A stretch of DNA of 64,000 nucleotides from Arachidicoccus sp. (lineage in GTDB: Bacteria > Bacteroidota > Bacteroidia > Chitinophagales > Chitinophagaceae), in NCBI GenBank assembly GCA_028283605.1, contig JAPWKH010000035.1, forward strand, positions 1-64,000. The letters are read 5' to 3'. Both the position numbers and the translations under genes were made by a program. The notes below the pieces were generated by a model. The model saw nothing but the letters and a program-made list of their open reading frames with translations, was not told the DNA's origin and did not search any database. The number at the start of each line of letters is the position of its first letter. Within the stretch, counting starts at the first letter, position 1. Positions 8,264-53,376 of the stretch are shown one piece after another.

Positions 8264-8268
8264 AACAG

Positions 8269-8937
8269 ATGAAAATTTTAATAGTTGAAGATGAGCAAGA
8301 CCTTGCAAGAAGCATTAGGCAATATTTGCAAAACCAAAATTATCTCTGTGAAATTGCAAGCACTGTGCAACAAGGAAGAGAGAAAATAGAGTATTTTGAT
8401 TACGATTGTATTCTGCTCGATATCATGCTGCCCGGGGGAACTGGATTACAATTGCTGGAAGAACTGAAACGTGATAAAAAAACGGACGGCGTAATTGTTA
8501 TCTCTGCAAAAAATTCTCTGGAAGATAAAATCTATTCTCTGAAGTCGGGTGCGGATGATTATCTTTCAAAGCCTTTTCATCTTGCGGAGTTGAGTGCGCG
8601 AGTCGAATCTGTGATAAGAAGAAGGCAATTAAACGGGAGCAATGATATTCATTTTCAAGATATAAAAATTGATATTCAGGCAAAGACCGTTTCCATCGAA
8701 AACGGGGAAATTAACCTTACAAAAACAGAATACGATTTGCTGTTGTTTTTAATGATGAACAAAGGAAAAGTTATCTCCAAAAATGCAATAGCTGAGCATC
8801 TTTCAGGGCAATCAGCAATGTATTTGGATAACTTTGACATCATCTATGCACACGTAAAAAATCTGAAAAAGAAATTAGGCTTGCAGGGGAATTATATCAG
8901 AACGATTTACGGCACAGGCTATAAACTTTCGGAATAA
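8269..8937 (+). CDS. OmpR/PhoB-family response regulator
   Basis: 222 residues. The receiver domain (1-118) has the acidic pair ED at 7-8, the phospho-acceptor Asp51 in CILLDIMLPG, and Lys101 in the LSKPF motif. A short linker leads to a winged-helix DNA-binding domain (about 125-222) ending in the typical YIRTIYGTGYKL hairpin. It is 5 bp after the metal transporter and 48 bp before the kinase. It should bind DNA upstream of target genes when phosphorylated by the neighbouring kinase; targets are not identifiable here, though its own operon is the obvious candidate. Confidence 0.95.
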   Translation: MKILIVEDEQDLARSIRQYLQNQNYLCEIASTVQQGREKIEYFDYDCILLDIMLPGGTGLQLLEELKRDKKTDGVIVISAKNSLEDKIYSLKSGADDYLSKPFHLAELSARVESVIRRRQLNGSNDIHFQDIKIDIQAKTVSIENGEINLTKTEYDLLLFLMMNKGKVISKNAIAEHLSGQSAMYLDNFDIIYAHVKNLKKKLGLQGNYIRTIYGTGYKLSE

Positions 8938-8985
8938 AAATCCTGACTTCTTTCGGATGACACTGATTAGCGTAAAAATATTGAA

Positions 8986-13197: not shown

Positions 13198-13592
13198 TAT
13201 TGATGCGATAACAAGAAAGAAATATTAATTTTTGCAAAAATAAAAATGGGTAAAATTGATAATCTCTGGTGCATTATTATTCTTTGTTCTACTCAACGTC
13301 AGGCTCAAGCAGTACTTATTCCACGAGATTTTATGAAATCTGCTGTATTTGTTCTTGAAGATAACTCACTAAAGTTTTTAATTACTGCATTGCGTATGCC
13401 TTAATAATTATAGAATAGAATTTTTTTCCTTTTTAATTTCATGTCACACATTACTGTATAATGCGTGACAAATTCGGCATCGATTGCACAAATTAATAAC
13501 TAATAGTTGTTTTGTATTAAGTAAATTGCAAATTGTAAACTTGACAATTATTGCTATCGGAATCATTTAAAACGAAAAGGCCGTATTCTTTA
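13198..13592 (+). other. Intergenic region ahead of the PUL
   Basis: About 395 bp between the sulfatase and the first PUL enzyme. It holds a 52-codon open frame at 13246-13404 (MGKIDNLWCIIIL start) that resembles no family I know and is probably not a gene. It also contains a T-rich run near 13418-13434 and a strong inverted repeat at 13442-13470 listed separately. No TAnnTTTG box was found. This stretch is the natural place for the promoter and operator of PUL block 1. Confidence 0.6.
13442..13470. promoter_or_regulatory. 12-bp inverted repeat, candidate operator of PUL block 1
   Basis: Two 12-base arms, TGTCACACATTA (13442-13453) and TAATGCGTGACA (13459-13470), are reverse complements except for one position, with a 5-base spacer CTGTA. 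No T-run follows the right arm, so it is a poor terminator. Its place 123 bp before the ATG of the first PUL enzyme fits a binding site for a dimeric regulator. The function is inference. Confidence 0.4.
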
Positions 13593-16367
13593 ATGAAACG
13601 ATTTCATCTGCGCTGCATTTTTTTCTTTCTATTTTTCTTTCTATTTGAAATTAGTTTTGCTTCTTCATTGCAAAATGAAAAAAATATAATTATTGTTTCC
13701 GCGCAAGATGTTGCAGAAAGAGTCCGATTTGGTATTGATTATCTTGATTCCTTACTGGTATTAAAAGGTTATCAGGTGCAAAAGAGCCATCAGATACCGG
13801 AAATAGAAAACTCCAAGATTATATTAATCGGCACAGGTTCAGATAAAATATTTTTTAAGTATTCTGAAGTGCGAAATATATCATTACAAAAAAGCGCACA
13901 TCAAGAAGGATTCTCTTTGAATTCAATAAACAATCAACTGGTCACAATTATCGGCGCAGATAATTCGGGTGTTTTATATGGTTGCCTTGCTTTGGCGGAC
14001 AGTATTGCAATTGACGGAAAATTACCCGAAAATATACATGTTTCTGACAGCCCGCAAATGGTTCTCCGCGGCGCATGTATTGGTTTGCAAAAACCGTATT
14101 TGTTGCCTGAAAGAAGTGTATATGAATATCCGATTACACCCGAAAATTTTTCCTGGTTTTACGACAAAATCTTGTGGATTAAATATCTTGATATGCTCGT
14201 GAATAACAGAATGAACACTTTATATCTTTGGTCCGGTCATCCGTTTGCATCGCTGATTCGGCTAAAAGATTATCCTTATGCAGTAGAAGTGGACAGCGCT
14301 ACCTTTGAAAAAAATAGGGAAATATTTCACTTTATCACGCAAGAAGCGGATAAGCGTGGTATTTGTATAATTCTTTCTTTTTATAATATAATAGTTTCCA
14401 AACCTTTTGCTGAGAAAAACGGTCTTAAAACACAGGATAGAAACCGCCCGATTATTCCTCTTATTGCTGACTATACAAGAAAATCTATTGCTGAATTTGT
14501 AAAAAGTTATCCCAATGTCGGCCTGCTCGTTACTCTTGGGGAAGCCATGCAGGGCGTAGGACGGGACGATATTGATTGGTTTACGAAAACAATTATTCCG
14601 GGTGTGAAAGATGGCTTGGAGGAATCCGGAAGAACTGATCAGCCGCCGGTTATTTTGCGTGCACACGATACCTATGCGCCGGATGATATTGCAGCTGCAA
14701 AGCCGTTATACGGCAATCTTTACACAATGCAAAAATACAATGGTGAAGCGCTTACTACTTATCAGCCAAGAGGAGAGTGGGCAAAGCTGCACAGGATTCT
14801 TGCAAGAATGTCACCTGTACTTGTGGAGAACGTTCATATACTCGCCAATTTGGAACCTTTTCGTTACGGTGCGGACGATTTTATCCAAAAATGTGTTCAG
14901 GCAATGTGTAGCATCGACAGTGCAAAAGCATTGCATATTTATCCGCAGGCTTCTTATTGGGATTGGCCGTATTCCGCAGATAATACAGATCAGAGGGTCT
15001 TGCAAATAAACAGGGATTGGATATGGTATGCCGAGTGGGCGCGCTATGCGTGGAACAGTAACCGCAACCGCAATGAGGAAATTTTGTACTGGTCGAAAAA
15101 ATTAGCTGAAAAATACGGTTGTTCTATCGAAGCTGGAAAACAAATATTGGATGCTTATGAACAGTCAGGCGAAATTGCGCCGAAGCTCTTAAGAAGGTAT
15201 GGCATTACAGATGGCAACAGGCAAACGCTTACGCTCGGCATGTTTATGAGTCAATTCATACATCCTACCAAATACAGCTTATTGAATTTATTGTACGAAT
15301 CGGAATCGCCACCGGGAGAGATGATAACTGAATACGCGAAAAAAGAATGGGATCATCTGCAGCATAGTGGAGAAACACCTACTCAAATCGCAAAGGAAGT
15401 AATTATAAACGGACAGAAAGCGGTTAATTCAATTGATAGCGCTGCATCGTATATAACAAATAACAAGGAAGAATTTCTTCGCCTTAGGAATGACATGTAT
15501 TGTTATAATCTTTTGGCTGATTTTTATAGTGAAAAGGTAACTGCTGCATTGGCTGTTTTGCGATATAAATATTCACTGAAAATCGCAGACCTTGATACCG
15601 CGCTTCCACATTTGGAAAAAAGCGTAGGTTACTTTTATCAATTGGCGGCACGTACAAAAAATACGTATTTGTATGCCAACAGTATGCAGACAAGCCAACG
15701 AAAAATACCTGTATCAGGAAAAGATGGGAAGAATAAAACATGGACGGAATTATTGATACTTTACCAGGATGAATTAAATAATTTTAAAAAGAATCTTAAA
15801 GCTTTAAAAGAAAGAAAAATTTTAGATGTAAATAATAATTCATTAAGACGATTCAAAAATGCCGATGTGACTTTATTGCCTGAAACAGCAAAAAACAAAA
15901 AAGTCAGTTTACAAAAAAACGCGCTGCCCTTTACAGATACTTCGGTACAGATAAAGGAAATTGATTATGAATTATGCGGATTAAACGCTATAATTTATGA
16001 CCGTCAAAAGCAAATTGATTCAGGAACTTTAATTCATTTTAAATGTAATCAGGATGTGAAGTTATTAATAGGATATTTTACGGAGAAAGATAAAAAATAT
16101 TTGTCCGAACCGCAATTAGAAATTGATGCCTCGGCTAATGATTACGATCAGGCAGAAACGAAGATTGCAAACGCAATATTAATACCCGGATTTCCTGCTG
16201 TTAATGTGCATGCCTTTAGTTTTAAAACGGGAGATCATACTTTATCCTTAGGAAAAGGCGAATGTCTTGTATTGGGCTTTATAGATGCCAAAATAGTTTT
16301 ACAACCCTTTGATGCAGCATTGGGAACCAATGGAGAAGATCGTGATATTGATTGGTTATTTCAATAA
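13593..16367 (+). CDS. Putative GH138-like alpha-galacturonidase (GH67/GH115-type architecture)
   Basis: 924 residues from ATG 13593, which starts a strong signal peptide (KRFHLRCIFFFLFFFLFEIS); the frame extends to a TTG at 13551. Residues about 30-160 form the small alpha/beta N-terminal domain seen in GH20, GH67 and GH115 enzymes (NQLVTIIGADNSGVLYG). A (beta/alpha)8 barrel follows, with LLVTLGEAMQG (Glu317) and QKYNGEALTTY (Glu385). Two glutamates 68 residues apart agree with the catalytic pair I recall for GH138, the RG-II alpha-D-galacturonidase family. The C-terminal part (700-924) is beta-rich. It opens the PUL and is followed by the MGH1-like gene after a 119-bp leader. GH67 or GH115 alpha-glucuronidase is the alternative, but their usual signatures are not seen. 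Confidence 0.55.
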   Translation: MKRFHLRCIFFFLFFFLFEISFASSLQNEKNIIIVSAQDVAERVRFGIDYLDSLLVLKGYQVQKSHQIPEIENSKIILIGTGSDKIFFKYSEVRNISLQKSAHQEGFSLNSINNQLVTIIGADNSGVLYGCLALADSIAIDGKLPENIHVSDSPQMVLRGACIGLQKPYLLPERSVYEYPITPENFSWFYDKILWIKYLDMLVNNRMNTLYLWSGHPFASLIRLKDYPYAVEVDSATFEKNREIFHFITQEADKRGICIILSFYNIIVSKPFAEKNGLKTQDRNRPIIPLIADYTRKSIAEFVKSYPNVGLLVTLGEAMQGVGRDDIDWFTKTIIPGVKDGLEESGRTDQPPVILRAHDTYAPDDIAAAKPLYGNLYTMQKYNGEALTTYQPRGEWAKLHRILARMSPVLVENVHILANLEPFRYGADDFIQKCVQAMCSIDSAKALHIYPQASYWDWPYSADNTDQRVLQINRDWIWYAEWARYAWNSNRNRNEEILYWSKKLAEKYGCSIEAGKQILDAYEQSGEIAPKLLRRYGITDGNRQTLTLGMFMSQFIHPTKYSLLNLLYESESPPGEMITEYAKKEWDHLQHSGETPTQIAKEVIINGQKAVNSIDSAASYITNNKEEFLRLRNDMYCYNLLADFYSEKVTAALAVLRYKYSLKIADLDTALPHLEKSVGYFYQLAARTKNTYLYANSMQTSQRKIPVSGKDGKNKTWTELLILYQDELNNFKKNLKALKERKILDVNNNSLRRFKNADVTLLPETAKNKKVSLQKNALPFTDTSVQIKEIDYELCGLNAIIYDRQKQIDSGTLIHFKCNQDVKLLIGYFTEKDKKYLSEPQLEIDASANDYDQAETKIANAILIPGFPAVNVHAFSFKTGDHTLSLGKGECLVLGFIDAKIVLQPFDAALGTNGEDRDIDWLFQ

Positions 16368-31032: not shown

Positions 31033-32727
31033 ATGAAATCCGTAATCAAAAAATTATTATTCCTGTTTTTTTTATTGACGACTGTAGCGGTTACAAATGC
31101 TCAATACCCGGATATTACGGCATCCGTAAAAAGATCTGCCGACTCTTTGTTAAAGGCTGCTCAAAACCATTCTGACTCCGCTTGGGCTGTTGCTTATCCT
31201 ATTGTAGATAGTTTTGCAAGGCATGGAAAACCATTTATCGAATGGGCAGGAAGGCCTACAGATTTACCGCAAGCCAATATCCTGGCATTTCCGGGTGCAG
31301 AAGGTGGCGGAGCTTACAGCTACGGCGGACGGGGCGGTAAAGTATATGTAGTGAAAAGCCTTGCAGACAACGGCCCGGGTACACTGAGATGGGCATGCGA
31401 ACAAGGTGGCCCACGTATAATTGTTTTTAATGTTGCAGGTATTATTCATTTAAACACACCAATTATTTTACGCGCGCCTTACATTAGTATAGAAGGTCAG
31501 ACAGCACCGGGCGATGGCGTGTGTGTAGCAGGAGAATCTTTTTGGATTAATACACATGATGTTATTATCCGTTTCATGCGCTTCCGCAGAGGACAAACTT
31601 GGGTGGGGAGAAGAGATGACGCTTTGGGAGGAAATCCTGTAGGCAATATAATTATCGATCATGTATCCGCAAGTTGGGGATTGGATGAGAACATGTCTAT
31701 ATACCGGCATATGTTTAATCCTCAAGACGGAAGCAAAGATGAGAAACATGGTACAGTAAATGTTACAATACAAAATTCAATTTCATCTGAATCATTAGAT
31801 TATTGGAACCATGCATTCGGCAGCACAATGGGTGGCGAAAATTGTATGCTTACAAGAAATCTTTGGGCGGATAATACAGGTAGAAATCCGTCTATCGGAT
31901 GGAATGGTGTATTCAATTTTGTCAATAATGTAGTTTTTAATTGGCATCATAGATCTACCGACGGAGGCGATTATACAGCACTATATAATATCATTAATAA
32001 TTATTACAAACCTGGTCCTGTTACGGATGTAAATGACAGAATTGGCCATAGGATTCTTAAACCCGAATCTGGCAGAAGCAAGTTGCCTTATAAAGTTTTC
32101 GGCAGAGCGTATGTTCAAGGAAATATTATGTATGGTAATGATAGTGTTACCAAAGATAATTGGGATGATGGTGTGCAAATAGCCGGCATTAATGATGATG
32201 TAATGCCTTTAGATTCGGCAATACGTTATTTTCAATATATGAAATCAGATGATCCATTTCCCATGGCACACGTAACATTGTTGTCGGCACAAGAAGGATT
32301 TAATTATGTCTTGAAAAATGTAGGAGCTACATTACCTCATCGCGATGCAGTAGACAATCGTGTTATTGAACAAGTACGCACGGGCAAAATAACCTATAAA
32401 GAAATGGAGACAGATACCGATTTTCAATTCAAAGTGCGCAAACTTCCTAAAGATTCTTATAAATTAGGAATTATTACAAATATCAATCAAGTTGGCGGTT
32501 ATCCAAATTATTCAGGTACGCCTTATAAAGATTCAGACAGTGACGGCATTCCGGATAGTTATGAAAAAAGTCATGGTTTAAACTCCAATAATGCTTCCGA
32601 TGCATCGGCTTATGCAAAAGATGGCAGCGGATATACCAATATCGAAGTGTATTTAAACAGCATAGTTCCTGTAGATATAGTACGCCCATCAAGCGGAACA
32701 GCTATAGGCAGGGAGATGAGGCCTTAA
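31033..32727 (+). CDS. PL1-family pectate lyase (first of a tandem pair)
   Basis: 564 residues with a signal peptide ending TNAQ. A right-handed parallel beta-helix of the PL1 type runs from about residue 85 to 470: FPGAEGGGAYSYGGRGG, GTLRWACEQGGPRIIVFNVAG, APYISIEGQTAPGDGV, RFMRFRRG and IIIDHVSASWGLDENMS, which holds Ca-binding and catalytic-face residues. The C-terminus has a thrombospondin-type-3/EF-hand-like calcium loop (DSDSDGIPDSYEK, about residue 498) common in these lyases. It should cleave de-esterified homogalacturonan by beta-elimination. The next gene is a close paralogue, so a tandem duplication happened here. It follows susD by 56 bp. Confidence 0.92.
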   Translation: MKSVIKKLLFLFFLLTTVAVTNAQYPDITASVKRSADSLLKAAQNHSDSAWAVAYPIVDSFARHGKPFIEWAGRPTDLPQANILAFPGAEGGGAYSYGGRGGKVYVVKSLADNGPGTLRWACEQGGPRIIVFNVAGIIHLNTPIILRAPYISIEGQTAPGDGVCVAGESFWINTHDVIIRFMRFRRGQTWVGRRDDALGGNPVGNIIIDHVSASWGLDENMSIYRHMFNPQDGSKDEKHGTVNVTIQNSISSESLDYWNHAFGSTMGGENCMLTRNLWADNTGRNPSIGWNGVFNFVNNVVFNWHHRSTDGGDYTALYNIINNYYKPGPVTDVNDRIGHRILKPESGRSKLPYKVFGRAYVQGNIMYGNDSVTKDNWDDGVQIAGINDDVMPLDSAIRYFQYMKSDDPFPMAHVTLLSAQEGFNYVLKNVGATLPHRDAVDNRVIEQVRTGKITYKEMETDTDFQFKVRKLPKDSYKLGIITNINQVGGYPNYSGTPYKDSDSDGIPDSYEKSHGLNSNNASDASAYAKDGSGYTNIEVYLNSIVPVDIVRPSSGTAIGREMRP

Positions 32728-32834: not shown

Positions 32835-34472
32835 ATGAGGAAAATCGGACTATTTATAATAATATTCTCCGGAAAAATATTTTCACCAAATCAAGCAAAA
32901 GCGCAATACCCAATTATTCCGCCGGCAGTACAAGCCGTAGCGGATTCGGCTTTAGCTGTGGAACAAGATTCTTCTGATAAAGCATGGAAAATGGCTTTGC
33001 CAATTATTGAAAGAGATGAGAAAAACGGTAAGCCTTATGTGCCATGGGCTGCAAAACCTTCCGATTTACCGCAGGCAAAAATCCCCGTTTTTCCGGGCGC
33101 GCAAGGCGGTGGAGCATATATTTTCGGAGGCCGTGGTGGCAAGGTATATGAAGTTACAAGTTTGGAAGACAGAGGGCATGGCACTTTGCGCGAGGCTTGT
33201 GAGCAAGGAGGTGCACGTATTATTGTTTTTAATGTTGCCGGCATTATTCATTTAAAAAGTCCCATTATTATTCGCGCGCCTTATATATCCATTGAAGGGC
33301 AAACGGCGCCTGGTGATGGTATTTGTATAGCTGGCGAATCTCTTTGGATCAATACGCATGACGTGCTGATTCGTTTTATGCGTTTTCGTAGAGGTGCAAC
33401 AGATGTCGCTCGCCGTGATGATGCTGTAGGCGGAAATCCTGTCGGAAATATTATGATTGATCATGTATCCACAAGTTGGGGATTGGATGAAAATATGTCA
33501 ATATACAGGCATGTATATGACAGAGGAACCGCTAAGCAGGAAAAATTACCCACCGTCAATGTTACCATCCAGAATTCTATCTTTGCTGAAGGTTTGGATA
33601 CATATAATCATGCCTTCGGCAGTACAATCGGCGGATTGAACAGTACATTTATGAGAAATCTCTGGGCCAATAATGTTGCGCGAAATCCTTCCGTTGGAAT
33701 GTATGGTGATTTTGGTTTTGTAAATAATGTCATTTTCAATTGGTGGAATCGCAGCGCAGATGGTGGCGACAATCGATCCTTCTTTAATTTTATAAATAAT
33801 TATTACAAACCCGGCCCTATTACTCCAAAAGGCAAACCCATATCTCACCGTATTTTAAAACCCGAAGCAGGACGTACCAAGACAAAAGAAAAACAGTACG
33901 GAAAAGCGTATGTAAACGGCAATATTATGGAAGGCAACGATCCGGTTACAAAAGATAACTGGAACGGAGGCGTTCAAATTGAAGATATGGATAATGCAGG
34001 AGAATATACCGACAGTATTCGTGTAGCCAACCCTTTTCCTTTAAAAGGAAATGTCAGTATTATTCCTGCGTCAGATGCATATCGGTATGTATTGAAAAAT
34101 GTAGGAGCAATATTACCGAGTCGTGATCCTGTTGATAGCCGGATTGTGCGTGAAGTAAGTACGGGTATAATAGAATATAAAGATGGCGGTAAGTCCGGTG
34201 TTACAAAATATATTAAACGTCGTTTACCTGCGGATTCATATAAAAACGGCATCATTAGCGATATCAGTCAGGTCGGTGGTTATCCGGAATATAAAGGTAC
34301 GCCTTATAAAGATTCAGATAAAGATGGAATGCCTGATGAGTATGAAAAGAAGCATCATCTGAATCCGAAAGACGCTTCTGATGCATCGGCTTATCAGAAA
34401 GACGGAAAAGGATATACCAATATTGAAGTATATCTTAATGGTGTTGTACCACAAAATATTGTTCAACCTTAA
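32835..34472 (+). CDS. PL1-family pectate lyase (second of a tandem pair)
   Basis: 545 residues, signal peptide ending KAQYP. It aligns with the upstream lyase along its whole length; the core beta-helix motifs (FPGAQGGGAYIFGGRGG, GTLREACEQGGARIIVFNVAG, APYISIEGQTAPGDGI, DHVSTSWGLDENMSIYRH) are nearly the same, while residues 15-60 and the region near 390-440 differ. The same C-terminal calcium loop is present (DSDKDGMPDEYEKKHHLNPKD). Both copies keep the surface motifs, so both are likely active, perhaps with different preference for chain length or methylation. It is 107 bp after the first copy, with a hairpin between, and 30 bp before the beta-helix/barrel gene. Confidence 0.92.
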   Translation: MRKIGLFIIIFSGKIFSPNQAKAQYPIIPPAVQAVADSALAVEQDSSDKAWKMALPIIERDEKNGKPYVPWAAKPSDLPQAKIPVFPGAQGGGAYIFGGRGGKVYEVTSLEDRGHGTLREACEQGGARIIVFNVAGIIHLKSPIIIRAPYISIEGQTAPGDGICIAGESLWINTHDVLIRFMRFRRGATDVARRDDAVGGNPVGNIMIDHVSTSWGLDENMSIYRHVYDRGTAKQEKLPTVNVTIQNSIFAEGLDTYNHAFGSTIGGLNSTFMRNLWANNVARNPSVGMYGDFGFVNNVIFNWWNRSADGGDNRSFFNFINNYYKPGPITPKGKPISHRILKPEAGRTKTKEKQYGKAYVNGNIMEGNDPVTKDNWNGGVQIEDMDNAGEYTDSIRVANPFPLKGNVSIIPASDAYRYVLKNVGAILPSRDPVDSRIVREVSTGIIEYKDGGKSGVTKYIKRRLPADSYKNGIISDISQVGGYPEYKGTPYKDSDKDGMPDEYEKKHHLNPKDASDASAYQKDGKGYTNIEVYLNGVVPQNIVQP

Positions 34473-34502
34473 TTTATTTTCAAAGTATAAAATTTATTTA
34501 TT

Positions 34503-37500
34503 TTGTTTTCCAACAATTCTCATATCTTTTTAATAAGATTTTACTTTAAATATTTCTTTATAGGTTTTGCCTTGCTTTATTCGGATATTATTTTTTCTCA
34601 GAAAAAAAATGTCCGTAGAGAGCCGCCGGCTCCGGTTGTAAGAGATAAAAATGGAAGTCTTATTTACACGCCCGATTCTTTAGGTAATCGCATTATCGAT
34701 TTTTCTTATTGCGGATATATGCAATCGGATAAAGCAATTCCTTATGTACCGGTTAAAATACGTGTTCCATTATCATCAGGCGATGCTACTTTAAGAATCC
34801 AATCCGCGATTAACTATATATCAAAACTTCCTATAACCCCGGAAGGATTCAGAGGGGCGATCTTATTGGACAAAGGTGTTTATCACATCAGCGGAAGTTT
34901 GAAAATTAATACATCAGGCATTGTATTACGAGGAAGCGGAATGGATAAAAATGGTACAACATTATTAGCAGATGGAACAGATAGAAATACATTAATAGTT
35001 ATTGCAGGTAAAGACGATAAAGCAATTGGAGAAGAAAAGAAAATAACTGATGATTACGTTCCCGTAAATGCTTTTAAAATAAATGTTGAGAACGGAAGTA
35101 TTTTTAAAGTTGGAGACAATGTAATTATTCATAGACCAAGTCCCCAAGAATGGATTGATGATTTAGGAACAAGAACTTTCGGTGGAGGCGTTTCTGCATT
35201 GGGTTGGAAGCCGGGCCAAAGGGATTTGTTCTGGGATAGAAAAGTTGCTGCCGTTGAAGCAAATACAATCACCTTAGACGCGCCAATTACAACTGCTTTG
35301 GACAGAAAATACGGAGGCGGAACTATTGCAAAATATTTGTGGCAGGGACGTATCCAACAAGTAGGTGTAGAAAATTTAAGATGTGTGTCGGCGTATGACA
35401 CACACAATCCCAAAGATGAAGATCATCGTTGGATGGCAATTACGATGGACAATATACAAGATGCCTGGGTAAGAAGAATTGTATTTGAACATTTTGCAGG
35501 TTCAAGTGTTGATGTATTATCAGGTTCAAAAAGAGTTACGATAGAAGACTGTGAATCGATAGCTCCTGTTTCTGAAATCGGTGGGCAGAGACGTTATACC
35601 TTTTGGACATGGGGGCAGCAAACATTATTTCAACGGTTATACAGCGAGCATGGTTATCACGATTTTTCTGTAGGCTACTGCGCAGCAGGGCCCAATGCTT
35701 TTGTACAATGTGAAGCAGAAGAATCTTTGGGTTACAGCGGTTCGGTAGATAGTTGGGCGCCCGGTATTTTATTTGATGTAATTAGAGATGATGGCCAGGA
35801 ATTAAGTTTTAAAAATCTTGGGCAAGATGAGCAAGGCGCAGGATGGAATACTGCAAATAGTGTATTTTGGAATTGCTATGCGGCATTGGTAGATTGTTAC
35901 AAGCCACCGACCGCACAGAATTATGCTTTCGGTACATGGTCGCAATTTCAAGGAGACGGATATTGGACTGAATCAAACAACTGGATTGAGCCAAGAAGTT
36001 TTTTTTATGCCCAATTAAAACAAAGACTAAATAAAAATGTAGATGATCGGGCGGGAATACTGCCGGAAGAAAGTGAAGCAAGCAGCAGCCCTACAGTAGA
36101 AGCTGCAGCGGAACTTACGAAAGAAGCATATCAACCCAGAACTACAATGCAAGATTGGATTGAAGAATTAATCCAAAAAAATCCTGTCGTTTTAAATTCC
36201 GACAGGGCAAAAACAATCGATGAAATTGGTGTTGAAAAAAAATTGCCCTTTATTAAAGCGGCACCAATGATCATTAAAAACGGATGGTTGGTAAGAGGTG
36301 ATTTTGTATTAACCGGAAATAGAAATTATGCTCCATGGTGGAATGGAACAGTAAAGCCGGATTATATCAACAACATTGCCGTACCTGCCGTCACACGATT
36401 TGTACCGGGAAGAACAGGGACGGGATTGACAGACGATCTTGATTCTGTTACAAATAATATGTTGAAGAAACATGTAGAGGTGATGGAGCAAAATTATGCA
36501 TTATGGTATGATCGTCGCCGTGATGATCATGAGCGTGTCCATAGAATTGACGGTAACGTGTGGCCTCCGTTTTATGAAGTCCCTTTTGCAAGAACAGGGC
36601 AGGGAATTGCTTGGGATGGATTAAGTAAATATGATTTGACAAAGTATAATAAATTCTATTGGGGTAGATTGAAACAATTTGCAGATTTGGCAGATGAAAA
36701 AGGATTGGTATTGATTCATCATAATTATTTTCAGCATAATATTATAGAAGCCGGCGCACATTATGTAGATTTTCCTTGGCGTCCTGTGAATAATATTAAT
36801 AATACGGAGTTTCCTGAACCGATTCGCTTTGCTGGTGATAAGCGTTTATTTATGGCAGATCAATTTTATGATGAGGTAAATCCTGTAAGACGCCCGTTAC
36901 ATGTGGCTTTCATCAGGCAATGTTTAAATAATTTCAAGGACAACAGCGGCGTAATTCAGTTTATTTGTGAAGAGTACACAGGGCCTTACCATTTCGCAAA
37001 ATTTTGGGTAAATACAATTGGTGATTGGGAAAAAGAAACCGGAAAAAAAGAAATGATAGGGCTAAGCACAACTAAAGATGTTCAAGACAGCATCTTGGCA
37101 AATCCTGAAACAGCCTCAGTAATTAATGTAATTGATATCCGTTACTGGTATTATCAGGCAGACGGAAAAGTCTATGCTCCCTTAGGAGGACAAAGCCTTG
37201 CGCCTCGTCAGCAGGAACGCCAGTTTAAGCCAAAGAAAACTTCTTTTGAACAGGTATATCGTGCGGTAAAAGAATACAGGGATAAATTTCCTGATAAAGC
37301 AATTATGTATTCCGGAGATGCTTATGATGATTTATGTTGGGCGGTATTTATTGCAGGAGGTTCTTTAGCGCCCTTGCCGGCCGGCATTCCTCAAAAGTTG
37401 CTTAATGATGCATCTGCTATGCTGCCTGTATCTTTGCCGGATAATCCGCAACAAGTATATGCATTAGGCAATGCAAGCAAGGGTTATATTATTTATGAAA

Positions 37501-37688
37501 GCAATGCAAAGCCCGTTACTTTAAAAGTAAGCGAGAAAGAAAATTATCTTTTAACCTGGGTTAATCCTGTGGATGGTAGCATTGTCGGAAAGCAGAAGTC
37601 TGTTTCCGGGAGCAATCAAATAACCATTTCAGATATTCCTGAAATATCGGGTGCAGTCGTGTTATGGTTAAGTAAATCATCTCAATAA
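34503..37688 (+). CDS. Secreted beta-helix plus barrel protein, DUF6298-like
   Basis: 1061 residues starting at TTG 34503; an in-frame stop lies just upstream and no ATG exists before the mature region, so a non-ATG start is required for the signal peptide (residues about 8-33, ending IIFSQ). Residues about 55-530 read as a pectate-lyase-like parallel beta-helix (GILLDKG-type coil, GIVLRGSGMDKNGT, DAWVRRIVFEHFAG). Residues about 590-970 look like a (beta/alpha)8 hydrolase barrel (YALWYDRRRDDHERVHRI, GVIQFICEEYTGP with Glu823/Glu824, RYWYYQADGK), followed by an Ig-like C-terminal strand domain. I associate this layout with the DUF6298 group. No CAZy family can be named. It sits between PL1 and GH140 genes, so an RG-II or homogalacturonan linkage is the likely target. 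Confidence 0.6.
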   Translation: MFSNNSHIFLIRFYFKYFFIGFALLYSDIIFSQKKNVRREPPAPVVRDKNGSLIYTPDSLGNRIIDFSYCGYMQSDKAIPYVPVKIRVPLSSGDATLRIQSAINYISKLPITPEGFRGAILLDKGVYHISGSLKINTSGIVLRGSGMDKNGTTLLADGTDRNTLIVIAGKDDKAIGEEKKITDDYVPVNAFKINVENGSIFKVGDNVIIHRPSPQEWIDDLGTRTFGGGVSALGWKPGQRDLFWDRKVAAVEANTITLDAPITTALDRKYGGGTIAKYLWQGRIQQVGVENLRCVSAYDTHNPKDEDHRWMAITMDNIQDAWVRRIVFEHFAGSSVDVLSGSKRVTIEDCESIAPVSEIGGQRRYTFWTWGQQTLFQRLYSEHGYHDFSVGYCAAGPNAFVQCEAEESLGYSGSVDSWAPGILFDVIRDDGQELSFKNLGQDEQGAGWNTANSVFWNCYAALVDCYKPPTAQNYAFGTWSQFQGDGYWTESNNWIEPRSFFYAQLKQRLNKNVDDRAGILPEESEASSSPTVEAAAELTKEAYQPRTTMQDWIEELIQKNPVVLNSDRAKTIDEIGVEKKLPFIKAAPMIIKNGWLVRGDFVLTGNRNYAPWWNGTVKPDYINNIAVPAVTRFVPGRTGTGLTDDLDSVTNNMLKKHVEVMEQNYALWYDRRRDDHERVHRIDGNVWPPFYEVPFARTGQGIAWDGLSKYDLTKYNKFYWGRLKQFADLADEKGLVLIHHNYFQHNIIEAGAHYVDFPWRPVNNINNTEFPEPIRFAGDKRLFMADQFYDEVNPVRRPLHVAFIRQCLNNFKDNSGVIQFICEEYTGPYHFAKFWVNTIGDWEKETGKKEMIGLSTTKDVQDSILANPETASVINVIDIRYWYYQADGKVYAPLGGQSLAPRQQERQFKPKKTSFEQVYRAVKEYRDKFPDKAIMYSGDAYDDLCWAVFIAGGSLAPLPAGIPQKLLNDASAMLPVSLPDNPQQVYALGNASKGYIIYESNAKPVTLKVSEKENYLLTWVNPVDGSIVGKQKSVSGSNQITISDIPEISGAVVLWLSKSSQ

Positions 37689-37702
37689 AAAGCTTTTTTA
37701 TA

Positions 37703-39112
37703 ATGCATTTACACAGACATGTTGATAGATTGCGTGTTTTTTTATTAATTCCAATATGCGGTTTTTTATATTGTGTAAGTAAGCCTTATGAAAAGAAACC
37801 GGCGAGTGAAATTTATCCTCTTCTTATTTCGGATAACCATCGTTTTTTTAAAACAAAAAACGGGGATCCGTTTTTTTGGATGGGTGATACAGGCTGGCTG
37901 TTGTTTACTAATCTGAACGATGAAGAAACCAAAATCTATTTGGATGACAGAAAGAAAAAAGGTTTTAATGTAATACAGGTAATGTTGCTGCACGGTTTGT
38001 CCGACAAAAATATTTACGGAAGGTATGCATTGATCAATAGCAATTTATCACAACCGGATATAAACAATAATGATGCTCATAATTATTGGAAACGCATTGA
38101 TAATATTATTGATCTTGCGGCAAAAAAAGGCATGTATATAGCCATGGTTCCTGTCTGGGGCAATGTGATCAAGTCCGGTAAAGTATCGGAAATACAAGCA
38201 AAATCGTATGCAAGTTTTTTGGCATTACGTTATAAAAACAAACCGAATATTATTTGGATGAATGGCGGAGATATCAAAGGCTCCGATTCATTGAATATTT
38301 GGAATATTATCGGAGAAACATTGCATAAAGAAGATCCGAATCATCTCATAACGTTTCATCCGCGCGGCCGGGCAATTTCTTCTTTATGGTTTCAAAATGC
38401 AGATTGGATGAGCTTTAATGTTTTTCAATCCGGGCATCGTCGCTATGATCAGGATACTTCAGCGGATGATTTGCATTACGGAGAAGATAATTACAAATAC
38501 GTTCAAGCGGCATATAATTTAAAACCCATTAAGCCTGTTCTTGATGCCGAACCTTCTTATGAAAATATTCCGCAAGGTTTGCACGATACTTCGCAACCGA
38601 AATGGAAAGCCGCAGACGTGAGACGTTACGCTTATTGGTCGGTATTTGCAGGCGCATGCGGATTCACTTACGGAAACAATTCCATCATGCAGTTTCATAA
38701 CGGCGCAGATAAGCCCGGCGCTTATGGCGCCACCAAAGATTGGCGCAAAGCCCTCAATGACAGCGGTGCATTGCAAATGATTTATTTAAAAAATTTAATG
38801 CATAGAAATGATTATTTCTCAAGGATACCCGATCAGTCAGTCGTTGTCGACCAAGGAGAAAAATATAAATACATAGCCGTTACAAGAAGCAATGCATATT
38901 TACTTGCGTATGATTATACCGGTAGAAAATTTTCTTTAAACTTAGAAAATATAAAAGTAAAAAGTGTAGTTGCTTCTTGGTACAATCCACGTAATGGAAG
39001 TAAAACAGCGATCGGTAAAATTCTTTCTAATGGAATAGTAAATTTCAATCCTCCAGGTGAAGAGAAAAATGGAAATGACTGGGTGTTAATATTGGATTAC
39101 ATAAAATCTTAA
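37703..39112 (+). CDS. GH140-like apiosidase (DUF4038 family)
   Basis: 469 residues. The N-terminus is a probable lipoprotein signal (LRVFLLIPICGFLYC). The barrel begins with FFKTKNGDPFFWMGDTGWLLF, the DUF4038 hallmark. Asp190 in NIIWMNGGDIKG and Glu283 in PVLDAEPSYE fall within a few residues of the catalytic Asp187/Glu284 I recall for the Bacteroides GH140 endo-apiosidase. A C-terminal collagen-binding-like beta-domain follows (about 385-469). GH140 cuts the apiose-galacturonate bond that ties RG-II side chains A and B to the backbone, which makes it the best single pointer to RG-II as the substrate. It is the last gene before a hairpin terminator. Confidence 0.85.
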   Translation: MHLHRHVDRLRVFLLIPICGFLYCVSKPYEKKPASEIYPLLISDNHRFFKTKNGDPFFWMGDTGWLLFTNLNDEETKIYLDDRKKKGFNVIQVMLLHGLSDKNIYGRYALINSNLSQPDINNNDAHNYWKRIDNIIDLAAKKGMYIAMVPVWGNVIKSGKVSEIQAKSYASFLALRYKNKPNIIWMNGGDIKGSDSLNIWNIIGETLHKEDPNHLITFHPRGRAISSLWFQNADWMSFNVFQSGHRRYDQDTSADDLHYGEDNYKYVQAAYNLKPIKPVLDAEPSYENIPQGLHDTSQPKWKAADVRRYAYWSVFAGACGFTYGNNSIMQFHNGADKPGAYGATKDWRKALNDSGALQMIYLKNLMHRNDYFSRIPDQSVVVDQGEKYKYIAVTRSNAYLLAYDYTGRKFSLNLENIKVKSVVASWYNPRNGSKTAIGKILSNGIVNFNPPGEEKNGNDWVLILDYIKS

Positions 39113-39213: not shown

Positions 39214-39280
39214 ACTACTAACAATAATTAGTTACAAGGCTTTGTATCAAAACCGTAACAATGCATTTATGGTAGTCCCG

Positions 39281-40210
39281 ATGAGAAGAATTGCGGCAAT
39301 TATACAAATTCTGGTTACAGGATTAATATTTACTTCCTGTTCTTCATCGGCTTGGATATACACTTCTTTTCACGAACCGGCAAATGAAGGTTTGCGGCTA
39401 TTGTACAGTTACGATGCTTATCACTGGAACGATTTCGGTAAGATATTTTTAAAGCCTGAAATAGGTAATCAAAAAATTATGCGAGATCCATCTGTTGTTT
39501 TTGGTAACGATAAAACATTTCATCTTGTGTGGACCACTGAATGGAAAGGAGGCAAAGGTTTTGGTTATGCATCCTCTTCCGACTTAATTCACTGGTCGCA
39601 GGAAAAATATATTTCTGTAATGGCAGATGAGCCAACGGTAAAGAATGTTTGGGCGCCGGAAATTTTTTATGATGACAATACAGAACAATACATTATTATT
39701 TGGGCTTCCGATGTGCCATTTCGTTTTGCCAAAGGAACAGAAGATGAAGATAATAATCATCGTCTGTATTATGTTACCACAAAAGATTTTCATACTTTTT
39801 CTAATGAAAAATTGTTCTTCGATCCCGGTTTCAGTTGTATAGATGCAACAATTATAAAAAGAGGTAAAAACGATTATGTTTTGGTATTTAAAGATAATAC
39901 GCGTTCGAATAGAAATATAAAAGTGGCATTCGCCAATACACTTCTCGGTCCATATCAAGGTGTTTCGAATGCAATTACACCCGGTTATTCCGAAGGTCCT
40001 TCAGTTGCCCATACAGGAAATAATTATCTTATTTATTACGATTGGTACAATCATAAAAGTTTTGGCGCCCTAATGACAAAGGACTTTCATTCTTTCAGAA
40101 ATATTACAGATAAAATAAGTATTCCGAAAGGGCATAAGCACGGAACAATTATTAAAGTAAAAAAGAAGCTTGTGCAACATGTATTAAAAGAGGTTGCCAT
40201 ACAAGATTAA
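39281..40210 (+). CDS. GH43-family glycoside hydrolase lipoprotein
   Basis: 309 residues from ATG 39281, giving a lipoprotein signal with Cys20 (GLIFTSC); a TTG at 39242 extends the frame without leader features. The five-bladed propeller of clan GH-F is clear, and all three catalytic acids are visible: Asp69 in IMRDPSVVF (base), Asp188 in SCIDATIIK (pKa modulator) and Glu238 in SEGPSVAH (acid). Repeated blade strands such as YASSSDLIHWSQ and YVTTKDFHTFS support it. GH43 members remove alpha-L-arabinofuranose, beta-xylose or beta-galactose. In this pectin locus alpha-arabinofuranosidase is most likely. It opens a run of densely packed genes reaching the window end. Confidence 0.88.
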   Translation: MRRIAAIIQILVTGLIFTSCSSSAWIYTSFHEPANEGLRLLYSYDAYHWNDFGKIFLKPEIGNQKIMRDPSVVFGNDKTFHLVWTTEWKGGKGFGYASSSDLIHWSQEKYISVMADEPTVKNVWAPEIFYDDNTEQYIIIWASDVPFRFAKGTEDEDNNHRLYYVTTKDFHTFSNEKLFFDPGFSCIDATIIKRGKNDYVLVFKDNTRSNRNIKVAFANTLLGPYQGVSNAITPGYSEGPSVAHTGNNYLIYYDWYNHKSFGALMTKDFHSFRNITDKISIPKGHKHGTIIKVKKKLVQHVLKEVAIQD

Positions 40211-40217
40211 TTGAACA

Positions 40218-42065
40218 TTGATGATACTATCAAAAAAAATATTATTGTTATTTATTGCCATTGTAATAGCTGCAAAACTATCTGCTCAAGATACAGTTCA
40301 TTACAGCGGCAGTACATTGGTTAATGCGGATTATTCCGACGGTCGTTTACATCCCGTTGTCGGCGTTCACAGCATAGAGATTTTAAGGGCAAATAGGCAG
40401 CATCCTGAAACTTCAGAGAATTTCGGTTGGACATACAATCACCAGCCGATGCTCGCATATTGGCACAATAAATTTTATTTGGAATATTTAAGTGATAGCG
40501 TAGGGGAAAGTGTTCCACCCGGACATACATTGCTTACAACTTCTGAAGACGGGTATCATTGGCAAAAGCCTGCAGAGATTTTCCCGCGTTACAAAATTCC
40601 GGACGGGACTACAAAGGCCGGGGTGCAAGGGGTTGCAAATAATTTATATTCCGTCATGCATCAAAGAATGGGATTTTATACTTCAAAATCAGGGAGGCTT
40701 TTGGTACTCGGGTTTTACGGAATTGTATTGGCGCCGCACGATGATCCGAATGATGGTAAAGGAATCGGTCGCGTAGTGAGGGAAATTTATTCCGATGGAA
40801 AGATGAGCCCGATTTATTTTATCCACTACAACCCTGCATGGAATACTACAAATACGCTGTACCCTTTCTATACAAAAAGTAAAGACAAAGGTTTTATAGA
40901 TGCTTGTAATGAATTGATGAATACACCTTTGATGATGATGCAATGGGTAGAAGAAACGGATAAAAAAGATTCATTGATCCCATTACATAAAGATTACAAG
41001 GCCTTTAATTTTTATCATCTTCCTGACGGGCGAGTAGTAGGATTATGGAAGTATGCGCTCACGAGTATCAGTAAAGATGAATGTAAAACATGGGGCGCTG
41101 TTACTCGCGCGCCACATTTTGTGAATAGCAATGCAAAAATATGGGGACAAAAAACTTCGGATGGGAAATATGTTACTGTTTATAATCCTTCAGAGTTTCG
41201 TTGGCCTTTGGCGTTATCTGTCAGCAAAGATGGATTGAATTATACTAATCTCTTATTGGTAAATGGTGAGATTCCTCCCATGCGTTATGGCGGCGCTTAT
41301 AAGTCTTATGGGCCGCAATATACGCGCGGAATTATTGAAGGCAATGGCATTGTTCCGGATGGAAATCTTTGGGTTACCTACAGCATGAATAAAGAAGATA
41401 TTTGGATTTCGGAAATTCCGGTGCCGATAACGGATACGGCATATTCATATCCCGACGATGATTTTAATAAACTCCCTGATGGTAAGGAACTATTGAAATG
41501 GAATTATTATAGTCCGCAATGGTGTCCTGTTGAAATTACCAAAATGCCTGATGGCGAAAAAGCTTTGACACTCAAAGATTGGGATCCGTTTGATTATGCA
41601 AAAGCTGAACGGATTTTTCCCGAAACAAAAAACTTATCGGCGTCGTTTACAATAATTCCCGGGCAAAATAATCACGGACAATTGGACATTGAATTTCAAA
41701 ATGCAGAAGGAACAGCTTGTATTCGATTAACATTTGATTCTATGGGAAATCTGAAAGCCAAGTCGGGGTATCGCGATAAAAATATTTTAAAGTACGAAGC
41801 AGGAAAAACTTATACGATTGATATGACATTGAATACCGATAACCGTTTTTATAGTGTTAGCGTAAATAGTGGTGATCATAAAATGAACAACCTATTTTTT
41901 GCACCTGTGCATTCTGTTGAACGCATTGTTTTCCGAACAGGTAGTGTGCGCCGTTTCCCAAACATTGATACGCCAACAGATCAAGATTATGATTTGCCAA
42001 ATGCAGGCGAAAAAACAGACACAGCAATTTATTATATTAAAAATTTAAAAACAGATGCATTGTGA
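40218..42065 (+). CDS. Secreted sialidase-like (BNR) beta-propeller with C-terminal lectin-like domain
   Basis: 615 residues with a signal peptide ending KLSAQ. Residues about 30-410 form a beta-propeller with BNR-like repeats (LTTSEDGYHWQKP, LTSISKDECKTWGA, LSVSKDGLNYTNL). Residues about 425-610 are a concanavalin/LamG-like sandwich (ALTLKDWDPFDYAKAE, LDIEFQNAEGTACIRLTF). Histidines in HPVVGVHSIEILRA and TYNHQPMLAYWHNK stand near the propeller entrance. Propellers of this kind in plant-glycan loci include rhamnosidases and Rha-GlcA lyases as well as sialidases, and plant pectin contains no sialic acid, so I do not assign an activity. It overlaps the next gene by 4 bp. Confidence 0.7.
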   Translation: MMILSKKILLLFIAIVIAAKLSAQDTVHYSGSTLVNADYSDGRLHPVVGVHSIEILRANRQHPETSENFGWTYNHQPMLAYWHNKFYLEYLSDSVGESVPPGHTLLTTSEDGYHWQKPAEIFPRYKIPDGTTKAGVQGVANNLYSVMHQRMGFYTSKSGRLLVLGFYGIVLAPHDDPNDGKGIGRVVREIYSDGKMSPIYFIHYNPAWNTTNTLYPFYTKSKDKGFIDACNELMNTPLMMMQWVEETDKKDSLIPLHKDYKAFNFYHLPDGRVVGLWKYALTSISKDECKTWGAVTRAPHFVNSNAKIWGQKTSDGKYVTVYNPSEFRWPLALSVSKDGLNYTNLLLVNGEIPPMRYGGAYKSYGPQYTRGIIEGNGIVPDGNLWVTYSMNKEDIWISEIPVPITDTAYSYPDDDFNKLPDGKELLKWNYYSPQWCPVEITKMPDGEKALTLKDWDPFDYAKAERIFPETKNLSASFTIIPGQNNHGQLDIEFQNAEGTACIRLTFDSMGNLKAKSGYRDKNILKYEAGKTYTIDMTLNTDNRFYSVSVNSGDHKMNNLFFAPVHSVERIVFRTGSVRRFPNIDTPTDQDYDLPNAGEKTDTAIYYIKNLKTDAL

Positions 42066-51026: not shown

Positions 51027-52457
51027 ATGCACAACATTTCATTTATAAAAAGAAGCCTGTTTTTTCTGTTTGCTTTTATCGCATTGCAAAATGTAATTTA
51101 TGCGCAGTATTTTGACACTGATAATAAATACGCCATGTCATTGTCAGAAGTTTTAGATAAGATAGAGCAACGCTATCATATAGTCATAAAGAGAAAACCA
51201 AAAATGGAAGAAGGCAAAATAGTAGACTATGCCTTGTGGAGATTTAAAAGCAATGTAGACAGTACATTGGCATCTGTTTTAAACAATTTAGATATAAATG
51301 CAATCAAAATTGATTCTGCCCATTATGAATTGAAAGAATACCAATATTATCGTTGGAATGTACAAGACGGTTGGAATGAGCTGGATAGGATTTCTTCTCA
51401 GTATCATAATAAACAACAATGGGAATTAAGGAAAGATTCTTTACGAGAAGAATTGTATCAGGCATTGGAATTATCGCCTTTACCGGCAAAGCCCAATATG
51501 CAACCTGTCGTTACGAAAGAAAGAATTTATAATGGCTATTCGGTACAAAATATTGCTATAGAAATTTTACCGGGACTGTATATTAATGGCTCTTTGTATA
51601 AACCATTACGAATACATGGAAAAATACCAATAATGCTTTCTCCGGATGGGCATTGGGATCAACAGCGTTATCGTCCGGATTGTCAAATTCGTTGTGCAAC
51701 ATTGGCACGAATGGGTTGTATGGCTTACAGTTATGATTTGTTTGCATGGGGAGAATCTTTGTTGCAATTTAAAACGGAAGACCATCGCAGGAGTCTTTCG
51801 CAAGTAGTGCAAACTTTAGGCGCGATTCGCATTCTTGATTATGTATGCTCCTTGAAAGAAACAGATACAAGCAGAATCGGTATCAGCGGCGGCTCCGGGG
51901 GAGGCAGTCATACAGTATTGATGGCAGCGCTCGATAAAAGAATAAAATTGAGTGCGCCGGTTGTTTCGGTTTCTTCGTATTTCTATGGTGGTTGTCCTTG
52001 CGAAAGTGGCATGCCTATCCACTTTTGTGCCGGCGGTACTGATAATGTAGAGCTTGCAGCTATGGCTGCTCCAAATCCGCAACTCTTAATATCTGATGGA
52101 AAAGACTGGACTCAGCACATGCCCGAGCACGATTTTCCTTATCTCAAAAAAATGTATGGTTATTATAATGCAGAGAGTAATGTTGAAAATGTTCACTTGC
52201 CTATTGAGGGGCATGATTACGGCATTTCAAAACGAGCGGCTTTATATCATTTCGTGGCAAAATATTTTGGCTTGGATATTCGTAAAATCGAAAAAGACGG
52301 TACAATAGATGAGTCAAAAGCAACAATAGAAAAAGAAGCTGAAATGTATGTATTCGGCGACAAGGGTCAATATTTGCCCAAAGATGCTATTAAAGGATTT
52401 GATAATTTGGAAAAAGTCTTTAACAAAGCCATTGGAAAAAATTATAATGAGCAATAA
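51027..52457 (+). CDS. Secreted alpha/beta-hydrolase esterase with N-terminal STN-like domain
   Basis: 476 residues, signal peptide ending IYAQ (27). Residues about 35-103 look like the STN/DUF4974 module of SusC and FecR proteins (SLSEVLDKIEQRYHIVIK, then a second half TLASVLNNLDINAIKID ending in a beta-strand). A helical linker leads to an alpha/beta hydrolase related to acetylxylan esterases (about 165-420): nucleophile Ser290 in ISGGSGGGSH, an oxyanion region near SPDGHWDQQ, and catalytic His396 in IEGHDYG. It probably removes acetyl or methyl esters from pectin oligosaccharides in the periplasm. The stop overlaps the next start by 11 bp. Confidence 0.8.
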   Translation: MHNISFIKRSLFFLFAFIALQNVIYAQYFDTDNKYAMSLSEVLDKIEQRYHIVIKRKPKMEEGKIVDYALWRFKSNVDSTLASVLNNLDINAIKIDSAHYELKEYQYYRWNVQDGWNELDRISSQYHNKQQWELRKDSLREELYQALELSPLPAKPNMQPVVTKERIYNGYSVQNIAIEILPGLYINGSLYKPLRIHGKIPIMLSPDGHWDQQRYRPDCQIRCATLARMGCMAYSYDLFAWGESLLQFKTEDHRRSLSQVVQTLGAIRILDYVCSLKETDTSRIGISGGSGGGSHTVLMAALDKRIKLSAPVVSVSSYFYGGCPCESGMPIHFCAGGTDNVELAAMAAPNPQLLISDGKDWTQHMPEHDFPYLKKMYGYYNAESNVENVHLPIEGHDYGISKRAALYHFVAKYFGLDIRKIEKDGTIDESKATIEKEAEMYVFGDKGQYLPKDAIKGFDNLEKVFNKAIGKNYNEQ

Positions 52458-53376
52458 GATAATGCATGCGATAAAAAATGATGTTTCAAGAAGAAATTTT
52501 TTGAAGTCGGGCGGAAAATTTTTAGGAGGGCTGATGCTTGCTCCGAAACACATTTGGATAAAAGACTTAATACCCGATGGGTCCTGCAGATACAAAATTG
52601 CAGTCGCAGATATTATGATTTTAAAAAGACAAAAAATTGGAGCATTTGATCTCACAAAAGAAATAGGTGCAGATGGCGTAGAGATTGATATGGGCGGATT
52701 GGGCAACCGAGAAAGTTTTGAGAATAAATTGAATAATTCCGTCGTACGACAAGAATTCCTATCAAAATCAAAAGAGACAAACGTAGGAATTTCTTCACTT
52801 GCTATGACCGGTTTTTATTCGCAATCATTCGCGACAAGAGCTACCTGGCAAAAAAATATTTCTGATTGTATTACTACCATGAAGGCGATGAAAATCAAGG
52901 CGGCATTCCTTCCTTTAGGTGTAAACAGCGATTTAAAAAAGTATCCGGAATTAAGGCCTTCATTGGTGCAAAGATTAAGGGTAGCTGGTAAGTTGGCGCA
53001 CGATATGAAAATGGTAATCGGTATTGAAACTTCTTTGGATGCAGCAGATGAAGTGAAATTTTTACGAGACATAAATTCACCGGGTATCAAGAGCTATTTC
53101 AATTTTGCGAATGCTTTGGATGCCGGAAGAAATGTAAGTGAAGAATTGAAAATTTTAGGGAAAGAAAACCTTTGCCAGATACATTGTACCGATACCGATG
53201 GCGTATGGTTACAGAACGATGCCAAAATAAATATGAAAGAGATTAAAAATACTTTAGACAAAATGCATTGGTCTGGCTGGTTGGTTATTCAACGTTCTCG
53301 TGATATGAACGATGTGCATAATGTAAAATATAATTTTTCAGCGAATACAAAATATATGAAAAGTATATTTCAATAA
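52447..53376 (+). CDS. Tat-exported xylose-isomerase-like TIM-barrel protein (sugar isomerase/epimerase family)
   Basis: 309 residues from ATG 52447, 11 bp inside the previous gene; ATG 52462 is possible too. The N-terminus carries a twin-arginine signal (DVSRRNFLKSGG, then a hydrophobic stretch), so the folded protein goes to the periplasm. The rest is an AP-endonuclease-2/xylose-isomerase barrel: EIGADGVEIDMGG, VGISSLAMTG, MVIGIETSLDAADE, LCQIHCTDTDGVW, GWLVIQRSRD. Where the family usually has Asp and Glu metal ligands it shows Asn (SYFNFANAL) and Gln (VIQRS). Relatives include isomerases, the periplasmic 3-keto-glucal hydratase and apionate-pathway enzymes. Its neighbour set (oxidoreductase, symporter) supports sugar processing, but the reaction is unknown. 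Confidence 0.8.
   Translation: MSNKIMHAIKNDVSRRNFLKSGGKFLGGLMLAPKHIWIKDLIPDGSCRYKIAVADIMILKRQKIGAFDLTKEIGADGVEIDMGGLGNRESFENKLNNSVVRQEFLSKSKETNVGISSLAMTGFYSQSFATRATWQKNISDCITTMKAMKIKAAFLPLGVNSDLKKYPELRPSLVQRLRVAGKLAHDMKMVIGIETSLDAADEVKFLRDINSPGIKSYFNFANALDAGRNVSEELKILGKENLCQIHCTDTDGVWLQNDAKINMKEIKNTLDKMHWSGWLVIQRSRDMNDVHNVKYNFSANTKYMKSIFQ

Follow-up and report, generated by a model that had tools for sequence, protein, structure and literature searches.

The subject of this analysis is a gene of the DUF6298 family (PF19815) at positions 34503-37688 (+ strand) in a 64,000-nucleotide stretch of Arachidicoccus sp. DNA (contig JAPWKH010000035.1; the whole stretch is called the window here). It encodes an exported protein in which a beta-helix is followed by a barrel, and its family, which is catalogued, looks like a regular, as yet unassigned component of the breakdown of rhamnogalacturonan II (RG-II), the plant pectin of greatest complexity; what is chiefly new is how closely it is linked to RG-II genes. 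Judging from the sequence, we put at about one half the probability that the protein is a periplasmic enzyme of the RG-II backbone. The original prediction, made from the letters of the window, had proposed that the protein is exported and joins a beta-helix to a hydrolase-like barrel within a pectin-type locus, and here the signal peptide as seen by eye, the models of both halves and the families in the locus agree with it. As a whole it was supported in part, and the protein is a real two-domain protein of a pectin locus.

Linkage of the DUF6298 gene to RG-II genes

The neighbourhood of the gene provides the strongest evidence. Two PL1-like genes lie upstream on the same strand (31033-32727 and, directly upstream, 32835-34472), matching the pectate lyase PelZ (NF041900) below its curated cut-off with E values of 2.1e-37 and 1.9e-39, respectively, and giving no Pfam match. 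The DUF6298 gene begins 30 bases after the second of them and ends 14 bases before a GH140 apiosidase gene (37703-39112, +; PF13204, E 1.3e-112), which places it between pectate lyases and an apiosidase, as had been predicted. The GH43-like and BT_1020-like genes, an RG-II signature, follow (39242-42065, +), and the window around the gene also contains GH95, GH2, two DUF3826, SusC/SusD, SASA esterase, rhamnosidase and GH141 genes. Because of these enzyme families, we infer that the locus is of the RG-II type.

Contigs were scanned for relatives with two patterns lying close together in the barrel, which returned at least 582 stretches encoding a relative; this is not a count of genes, since both patterns can match one gene. 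The best 80 of these stretches were taken as loci. They came mostly from Bacteroidota, two being from planctomycete-type metagenome-assembled genomes (MAGs; L090 and L093), and in all 80 the match started no later than residue 100 of the window protein and reached at least residue 950. Relatives of the neighbouring genes were searched for by tblastn (E up to 1e-20, more than half of the query) in flanks of up to 10 kb, several contigs being short. Each PL1-like gene had a relative in 78 of the 80 loci, GH140 in 68, the GH43-like gene in 67 and the BT_1020-like gene in 68, followed by GH2 (56), SusC (55), SusD (53), the SASA esterase (49) and the first DUF3826 gene (43). A PL1-like gene was located at most 1.2 kb upstream in 76 of the 77 loci with enough sequence, and in 68 of the 76 loci testable for GH140, this gene was no further than 1.2 kb downstream. 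In two loci, DUF6298 and GH140 were encoded by one open reading frame (ORF), at L085:10001-14296 (1438 aa) and L087:10001-14326 (1462 aa). An overlap was also flagged in L031, but its DUF6298 frame is not unusually long and it was not counted as a fusion.

The same association was observed at the level of genomes. In the first genus, DUF6298 was present in 24 of the 121 sampled genomes, and the same 24 carried PF24067 (the BT_1020 propeller) as well as a DUF3826 match to BT1022, although that of G603 was weak; the Fisher p value for this co-occurrence, 7e-26, ignores shared ancestry. In a second genus, with 119 genomes sampled, 34 carried DUF6298. In 33 of these a DUF3826 match was also found (that of G867 was weak and may be of the BT1017 type), one (G939) had DUF6298 alone, and the other 85 genomes had neither. 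We call this genus Bacteroides-like on account of the matches to BT1022 at 100% in G915 and 98% in G859; these two, the nearest to B. thetaiotaomicron by BT1022 identity, both carry the DUF6298 gene. In six of the seven loci read in this genus, the genes ahead of DUF6298 are a PL1-like gene and an ORF of about 1470-1500 aa, an arrangement shown by G915 and G859; the PL1-like gene is missing from L222. NCBIfam identified the long ORF of L137 as a hybrid histidine kinase, and from their size and place the long ORFs of the other loci are probably the same. Two damaged copies were noticed among the sampled genomes: a DUF6298 copy apparently broken by a stop (G909:C90:17610-19060) and, in G047, an additional copy of the helix type that is interrupted by a stop (G047:C1:2331456-2332871).

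The accessible parts of the published work describe an RG-II locus, BT0977-30, with the hybrid two-component system (HTCS) regulator BT0981 (PMC3243724), and a rhamnogalacturonan-induced locus, BT0977-1030, with the same HTCS, which is given there as not conserved between the genomes analysed (PMC3878776). In the literature searched, PMC3878776 was the sole relevant paper for BT0956-0961, and nothing relevant was found for BT0978-0980.

Family identity and architecture of the protein

The gene is an open frame of 1061 codons with a TTG start, confirmed in the ORF list as the 1061-residue protein that had been proposed. It is not a chance frame, given the relative-encoding stretches described above and a full-length alignment with 12 relatives. 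The protein had been regarded as unclassified, which does not hold: residues 486-973 match PF19815 (DUF6298; function not catalogued) with 801.6 bits against a curated cut-off of 28.1, over positions 1-487 of the 487 of the profile, and no difference from this family was found in anything tested. The Pfam model spans the barrel but takes in no more of the helix than its end. In 13 genomes over the PF19815 cut-off, the open frames measured 996-1086 aa and aligned with the window protein from helix to barrel; in the 13-row alignment, the 12 relatives were 53-61% identical to it over the whole length.

Residues 1 to about 32 (34503-34598, +) form a hydrophobic signal peptide, recognised by eye, without a Cys at its end, so that the protein is probably released to the periplasm. 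A lipobox pattern was found in 6 of the 80 relatives and was judged false because it lies inside the hydrophobic core. The non-ATG start, put forward as a point of interest, turned out to be uninformative: by a rough count in the expected interval, ATG was available in 51 of the 80 relatives, GTG or TTG alone in 27 and neither in 2. Promoter-like and terminator-like sites at 34350-37800 showed no excess over shuffled sequence (10 against 11.2 expected, and 3 against 2.8, respectively).

No characterised family reached its cut-off for the DUF6298 protein in Pfam or NCBIfam, and no close sequence was found in the PDB by searches with the protein and both half-profiles, which gave chance hits and weak matches to beta-helix structures (7chu, 3zsc); a match to a characterised family with one known activity, which would have spoken against the idea of a new type of enzyme, was thus not found there. 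A search of the window's own genome with PF13229 gave four matches, none of them at the DUF6298 locus. The term DUF6298 was absent from the literature searched, which excluded subscription journals, and no activity assigned to the family and no paper on DUF4955 and DUF6298 were found in it.

The two halves of the protein were modelled separately, as residues 46-560 and 540-1061. Both half alignments had 50 rows, namely the window and 49 of the 80 loci; removal of sequences at or above 85% identity had left 57, and 8 more were omitted by choice. The first model (predicted local distance difference test, pLDDT, 84.9; predicted template modelling score, pTM, 0.90) contained a right-handed parallel beta-helix at about residues 46-520 (34638-36062, +), close to the pectate-lyase-like helix predicted at about 55-530. 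After realignment, its best fold matches were the alginate epimerase/lyase 8ja4 (Z 28.0) and the mannuronan epimerase AlgE4 (2pyg, Z 27.4; 2pyh, Z 27.3), followed by the Klebsiella K1 lyase (Z 27.1) and the polygalacturonase 1bhe (Z 26.5), while Foldseek ranked phage depolymerases and the Klebsiella K1 lyase on top. The AlgE-type right-handed fold is thus present in the model, but the predicted structure points to no single family, because many helix families score close together. Although the beta-helix is common to DUF6298 and to 8ja4, 2pyh and 1bhe (Z 26.5-28), the DUF6298 helix is just 12-16% identical to them. PelZ (NF041900) gave no match to the DUF6298 protein at E up to 1.

The second model (pLDDT 80.7, pTM 0.83) placed a (beta/alpha)8-type (TIM) barrel at residues 591-957 (36273-37373, +) and a C-terminal beta-sandwich at residues 958-1061 (37374-37685, +), weakly conserved and shorter in some relatives, the two together occupying about residues 583-1061; a linker (residues 521-590; 36063-36272, +) joins the halves. 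A hydrolase-like barrel with an Ig-like tail had been foreseen here, and the C-terminal half does contain a barrel in the model. Its best fold matches were the GH140 apiosidases 8t9w (Z 19.6) and 5msy (BT_1012; Z 19.3), over 342-348 residues including the beta-sandwich, followed by the GH5-titled Bacteroides entries 3kzs and 4qfu (Z 18.9) and by GH5 mannanases (18.4 or lower). Identity was just 12-14% with the GH140 enzymes and 8-13% with the GH5-type ones (3kzs, 4qfu, ManDH5 9gpg and fungal mannanases; Z 16.6-18.9), and a shared fold shows no function. The models slightly favour GH140 for what would be a GH140/GH5-like fold. At E up to 1, the DUF6298 protein matched neither PF13204 (GH140) nor the GH5 Pfam family. 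The profile match between GH140 and DUF6298 covers just the tail (21%), so that the relation to GH140 rests on the fold, and membership of DUF6298 in GH140 was rejected since the fold is common to both and the sequence is not.

Conservation was counted in an alignment of 81 rows, the window and the 80 loci. At least 80 of the 81 rows agreed at 237 positions: 117 of the 475 helix positions and 114 of the 367 barrel positions, compared with 5 of the 70 linker positions and 1 of the 104 tail positions. This conservation of both halves fits two working domains, without amounting to proof of two activities.

Candidate catalytic residues and activities

A pair of glutamates at 823-824 had been proposed for the barrel. 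Both residues are where they had been placed, but only the second withstood comparison: Glu824 (36972-36974, +; codon GAG) lies just after a barrel strand and is kept in all 81 rows, whereas position 823 (36969-36971, +; codon GAA) is Ala in 62, Glu in 15 and Ser in 4, which eliminates Glu823 as a catalytic residue. The 13-row alignment agrees, Glu824 being invariant and Glu823 not. We propose Glu824 as general acid/base. The best candidate for a second catalytic acid would be Asp878 (37134-37136, +), found in 81 of 81 rows on the second strand after the one preceding Glu824.

Retaining enzymes of clan GH-A need a nucleophile Glu after strand 7. In the GH140 alignment, Asp190 and Glu283 were kept in 26 of 26 rows, and we take the catalytic residues of GH140 to be the Asp that follows strand 4 and the Glu that follows strand 7. 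This alignment (A5) combined 23 of the 68 GH140 matches with the window, L129 and L139; in a further one (A6), L129 was entered twice, as two overlapping pieces of one gene. In contrast to GH140, no Asp or Glu reached 80 of 81 rows in residues 879-1061 of DUF6298, the position mapping between the two families being by eye. The nearest acids after Asp878 are Glu924, kept in at least 90% of the 50 rows, and Asp939. Gly938-Asp939 (37314-37319, +) is the by-eye equivalent of the GH140 nucleophile region, in which position 938 is Gly in 41, Ala in 35, Ser in 3 and Glu in 2 of the 81 rows; profile alignment did not confirm its pairing with Glu283. DUF6298 thus seems to lack the retaining Glu pair that is usual in GH140 and clan GH-A, and a retaining mechanism is unlikely because of the lack of such an acid after Asp878. 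This argument is independent of the strand alignment and assumes a nucleophile common to all rows.

On the favoured reading, the protein would be exported to the periplasm, where its beta-helix would hold, and probably cut or trim, the polygalacturonate backbone, and its barrel, a distant fold relative of the GH140 apiosidase, would attack a bond close by, within one and the same fragment of RG-II. Glu824 would work as general acid, not by way of the usual retaining pair, and Asp878 as second acid, which would make the barrel an inverting enzyme. In the most likely order, the backbone would be opened or shortened by the PL1 lyases and then by DUF6298, which would allow GH140 to take off the side chains linked through apiose.

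Several observations weigh against this scheme. The invariant loops at about residues 667-690 and 757-773 were modelled with low confidence. Fold matches within 1 Z were counted as tied, and by this measure the GH140 match of the barrel is tied with the GH5-titled entries; the Foldseek top five were all the GH5 mannanase ManDH5, then came GH140, with TM-scores (template modelling scores) of about 0.5 or lower. Asp939, present in 72 of the 81 rows and in 13 of 13, may have a role, and a strand-level profile alignment of the second half of the barrel with GH140 and the stand-alone barrels described below gave no usable mapping beyond Glu824. The choice of the best-scoring loci favours conservation in the 81-row counts. 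The apiosidase link is not obligate, since 8 of the 76 loci that could be tested lack GH140, those of the planctomycete-type MAGs among them, and no GH140 relative was found in the 20 kb read for the seven Bacteroides-like loci. Finally, 21 of the 22 RG-II linkages are given as cleaved by B. thetaiotaomicron in the part of PMC7939467 available, which would leave little glycosidic work for DUF6298. As a separate observation, the loci read in L090 and L093 contain PL1-like, DUF3826 and DUF6298 genes.

The best placed of the alternatives, although we consider it unlikely, is that the barrel alone is catalytic and that the beta-helix is a fixed platform that holds the substrate after losing its own activity. 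In three barrel-less helix relatives (L018, L020 and L021), the motif HHRW takes the place of the DSW typical of the fused proteins (L129 has GSW and L017 GRW), so that a possible catalytic His pair would be missing from the fused proteins. The scores of a helix profile in 198 genomes of the phylum also favour this alternative: nine DUF6298 proteins scored between 724 and 950 bits, and no other open frame scored above 415, the presence of a barrel in these other frames not being checked. Against it, polar residues of the helix (Arg363, His386, Asp387, Asp305, Glu306 and His308) are conserved in at least 80 of the 81 rows of fused proteins, and the three relatives without a barrel have them too. 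Arg363-Arg364 (35589-35594, +) is conserved in at least 80 of 81 rows; two of the barrel-less relatives have Arg-Arg at this place and L020 has Arg-Lys. His386-Asp387 (35658-35663, +) would be the candidate catalytic residues of the helix.

A chain with two active sites for RG-II, in which a helix of the backbone-lyase or epimerase-like kind would be joined to a barrel founding a new glycoside hydrolase family, is a tentative proposal that we likewise hold to be improbable. In such a barrel, Glu824 and Asp878, separated by two strands, would form an unusual inverting pair that replaces the retaining pair of the GH140 fold relatives.

It is less probable again that the beta-helix alone is catalytic, as a lyase distantly related to PL29, and that the barrel is degenerate, being non-catalytic or a binding module. 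Residues 132-331 of the helix do match the model of the PL29 chondroitin/hyaluronan lyase BT3328 (NF058554; enzyme described in the available parts of PMC6994673 and PMC12877422), albeit weakly (E 1e-9) and in a different substrate setting, and 37.2 bits against an NCBIfam cut-off of 1100 rule out PL29 membership. The lack of a near-invariant acid after Asp878, where the clan GH-A nucleophile sits, would also suit a degenerate barrel. However, the barrel is conserved at least as much as the helix, and Glu824 is kept in every row. It also aligns with the Glu of an NNE motif that all 11 stand-alone barrels retain, including one encoded in a sulfatase locus. These proteins (475-579 aa) lack the beta-helix and share the barrel and tail with DUF6298 (profile match over both, probability 99.1, E 8.8e-19); their alignment (A4) omits the GH5-like L023 and L122 and two other-frame ORFs of L119. 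NCBIfam assigned them to no family beyond one chance match. The stand-alone barrel of L145 (6108-7547) lies among five sulfatase genes (L145:2701-12326), and for this reason the barrel family may serve other glycans as well.

A non-catalytic role in the periplasm, as a carrier of RG-II fragments or a scaffold for them, is quite improbable. It would agree with the 22 enzymes and all but one RG-II linkage credited to B. thetaiotaomicron in the accessible parts of PMC12282258 and PMC7939467, but both halves have many near-invariant charged residues and both folds are best matched by enzymes. According to the same part of PMC7939467, RG-II was not bound by BT1022 nor by the DUF3826 domain of BT1017. 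Least probable is that the barrel cleaves 2-O-Me-Xyl-alpha1,3-Fuc (2-O-methyl-xylosyl-alpha1,3-fucose), which is the one linkage named there as uncleaved and which might appear vacant since no activity was found assigned to DUF6298: wild-type B. thetaiotaomicron accumulates this disaccharide (PMC7939467), though the genomes nearest to it carry DUF6298, and this candidate was set aside.

Other features of the loci and meaning of the linkage

Further features were noticed in the window and in one of the loci. In L139, a RuBisCO-like gene (6450-7721) and a GH127 gene (7730-9778) occur in a locus that also has a stand-alone barrel, DUF6298 and GH140. Since the breakdown of apionate is known to involve RuBisCO-like proteins, that of L139 may belong to a route for the released apiose. 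In the window, an esterase-like ORF (51027-52457) and a xylose-isomerase-like ORF (52348-53376) overlap by 110 bases, and the start of the latter may be mis-set. A 938-aa ORF at 13551-16367 gave a sub-threshold match to the GH67 N-terminal domain and has relatives (45-56% identity) near 4 of the 80 DUF6298 loci.

In two genera, the presence of DUF6298 matches that of RG-II marker genes nearly one for one. The available parts of PMC12282258 and PMC7939467 present the breakdown of RG-II by B. thetaiotaomicron as all but solved, yet the conserved DUF6298 family seems to be a component of this almost complete pathway to which no activity is assigned. A barrel that is active without the usual nucleophile would, if true, be a new enzyme family, and if the chain does have two active sites, it would supply a missing step of RG-II breakdown shared by gut, soil and aquatic bacteria.

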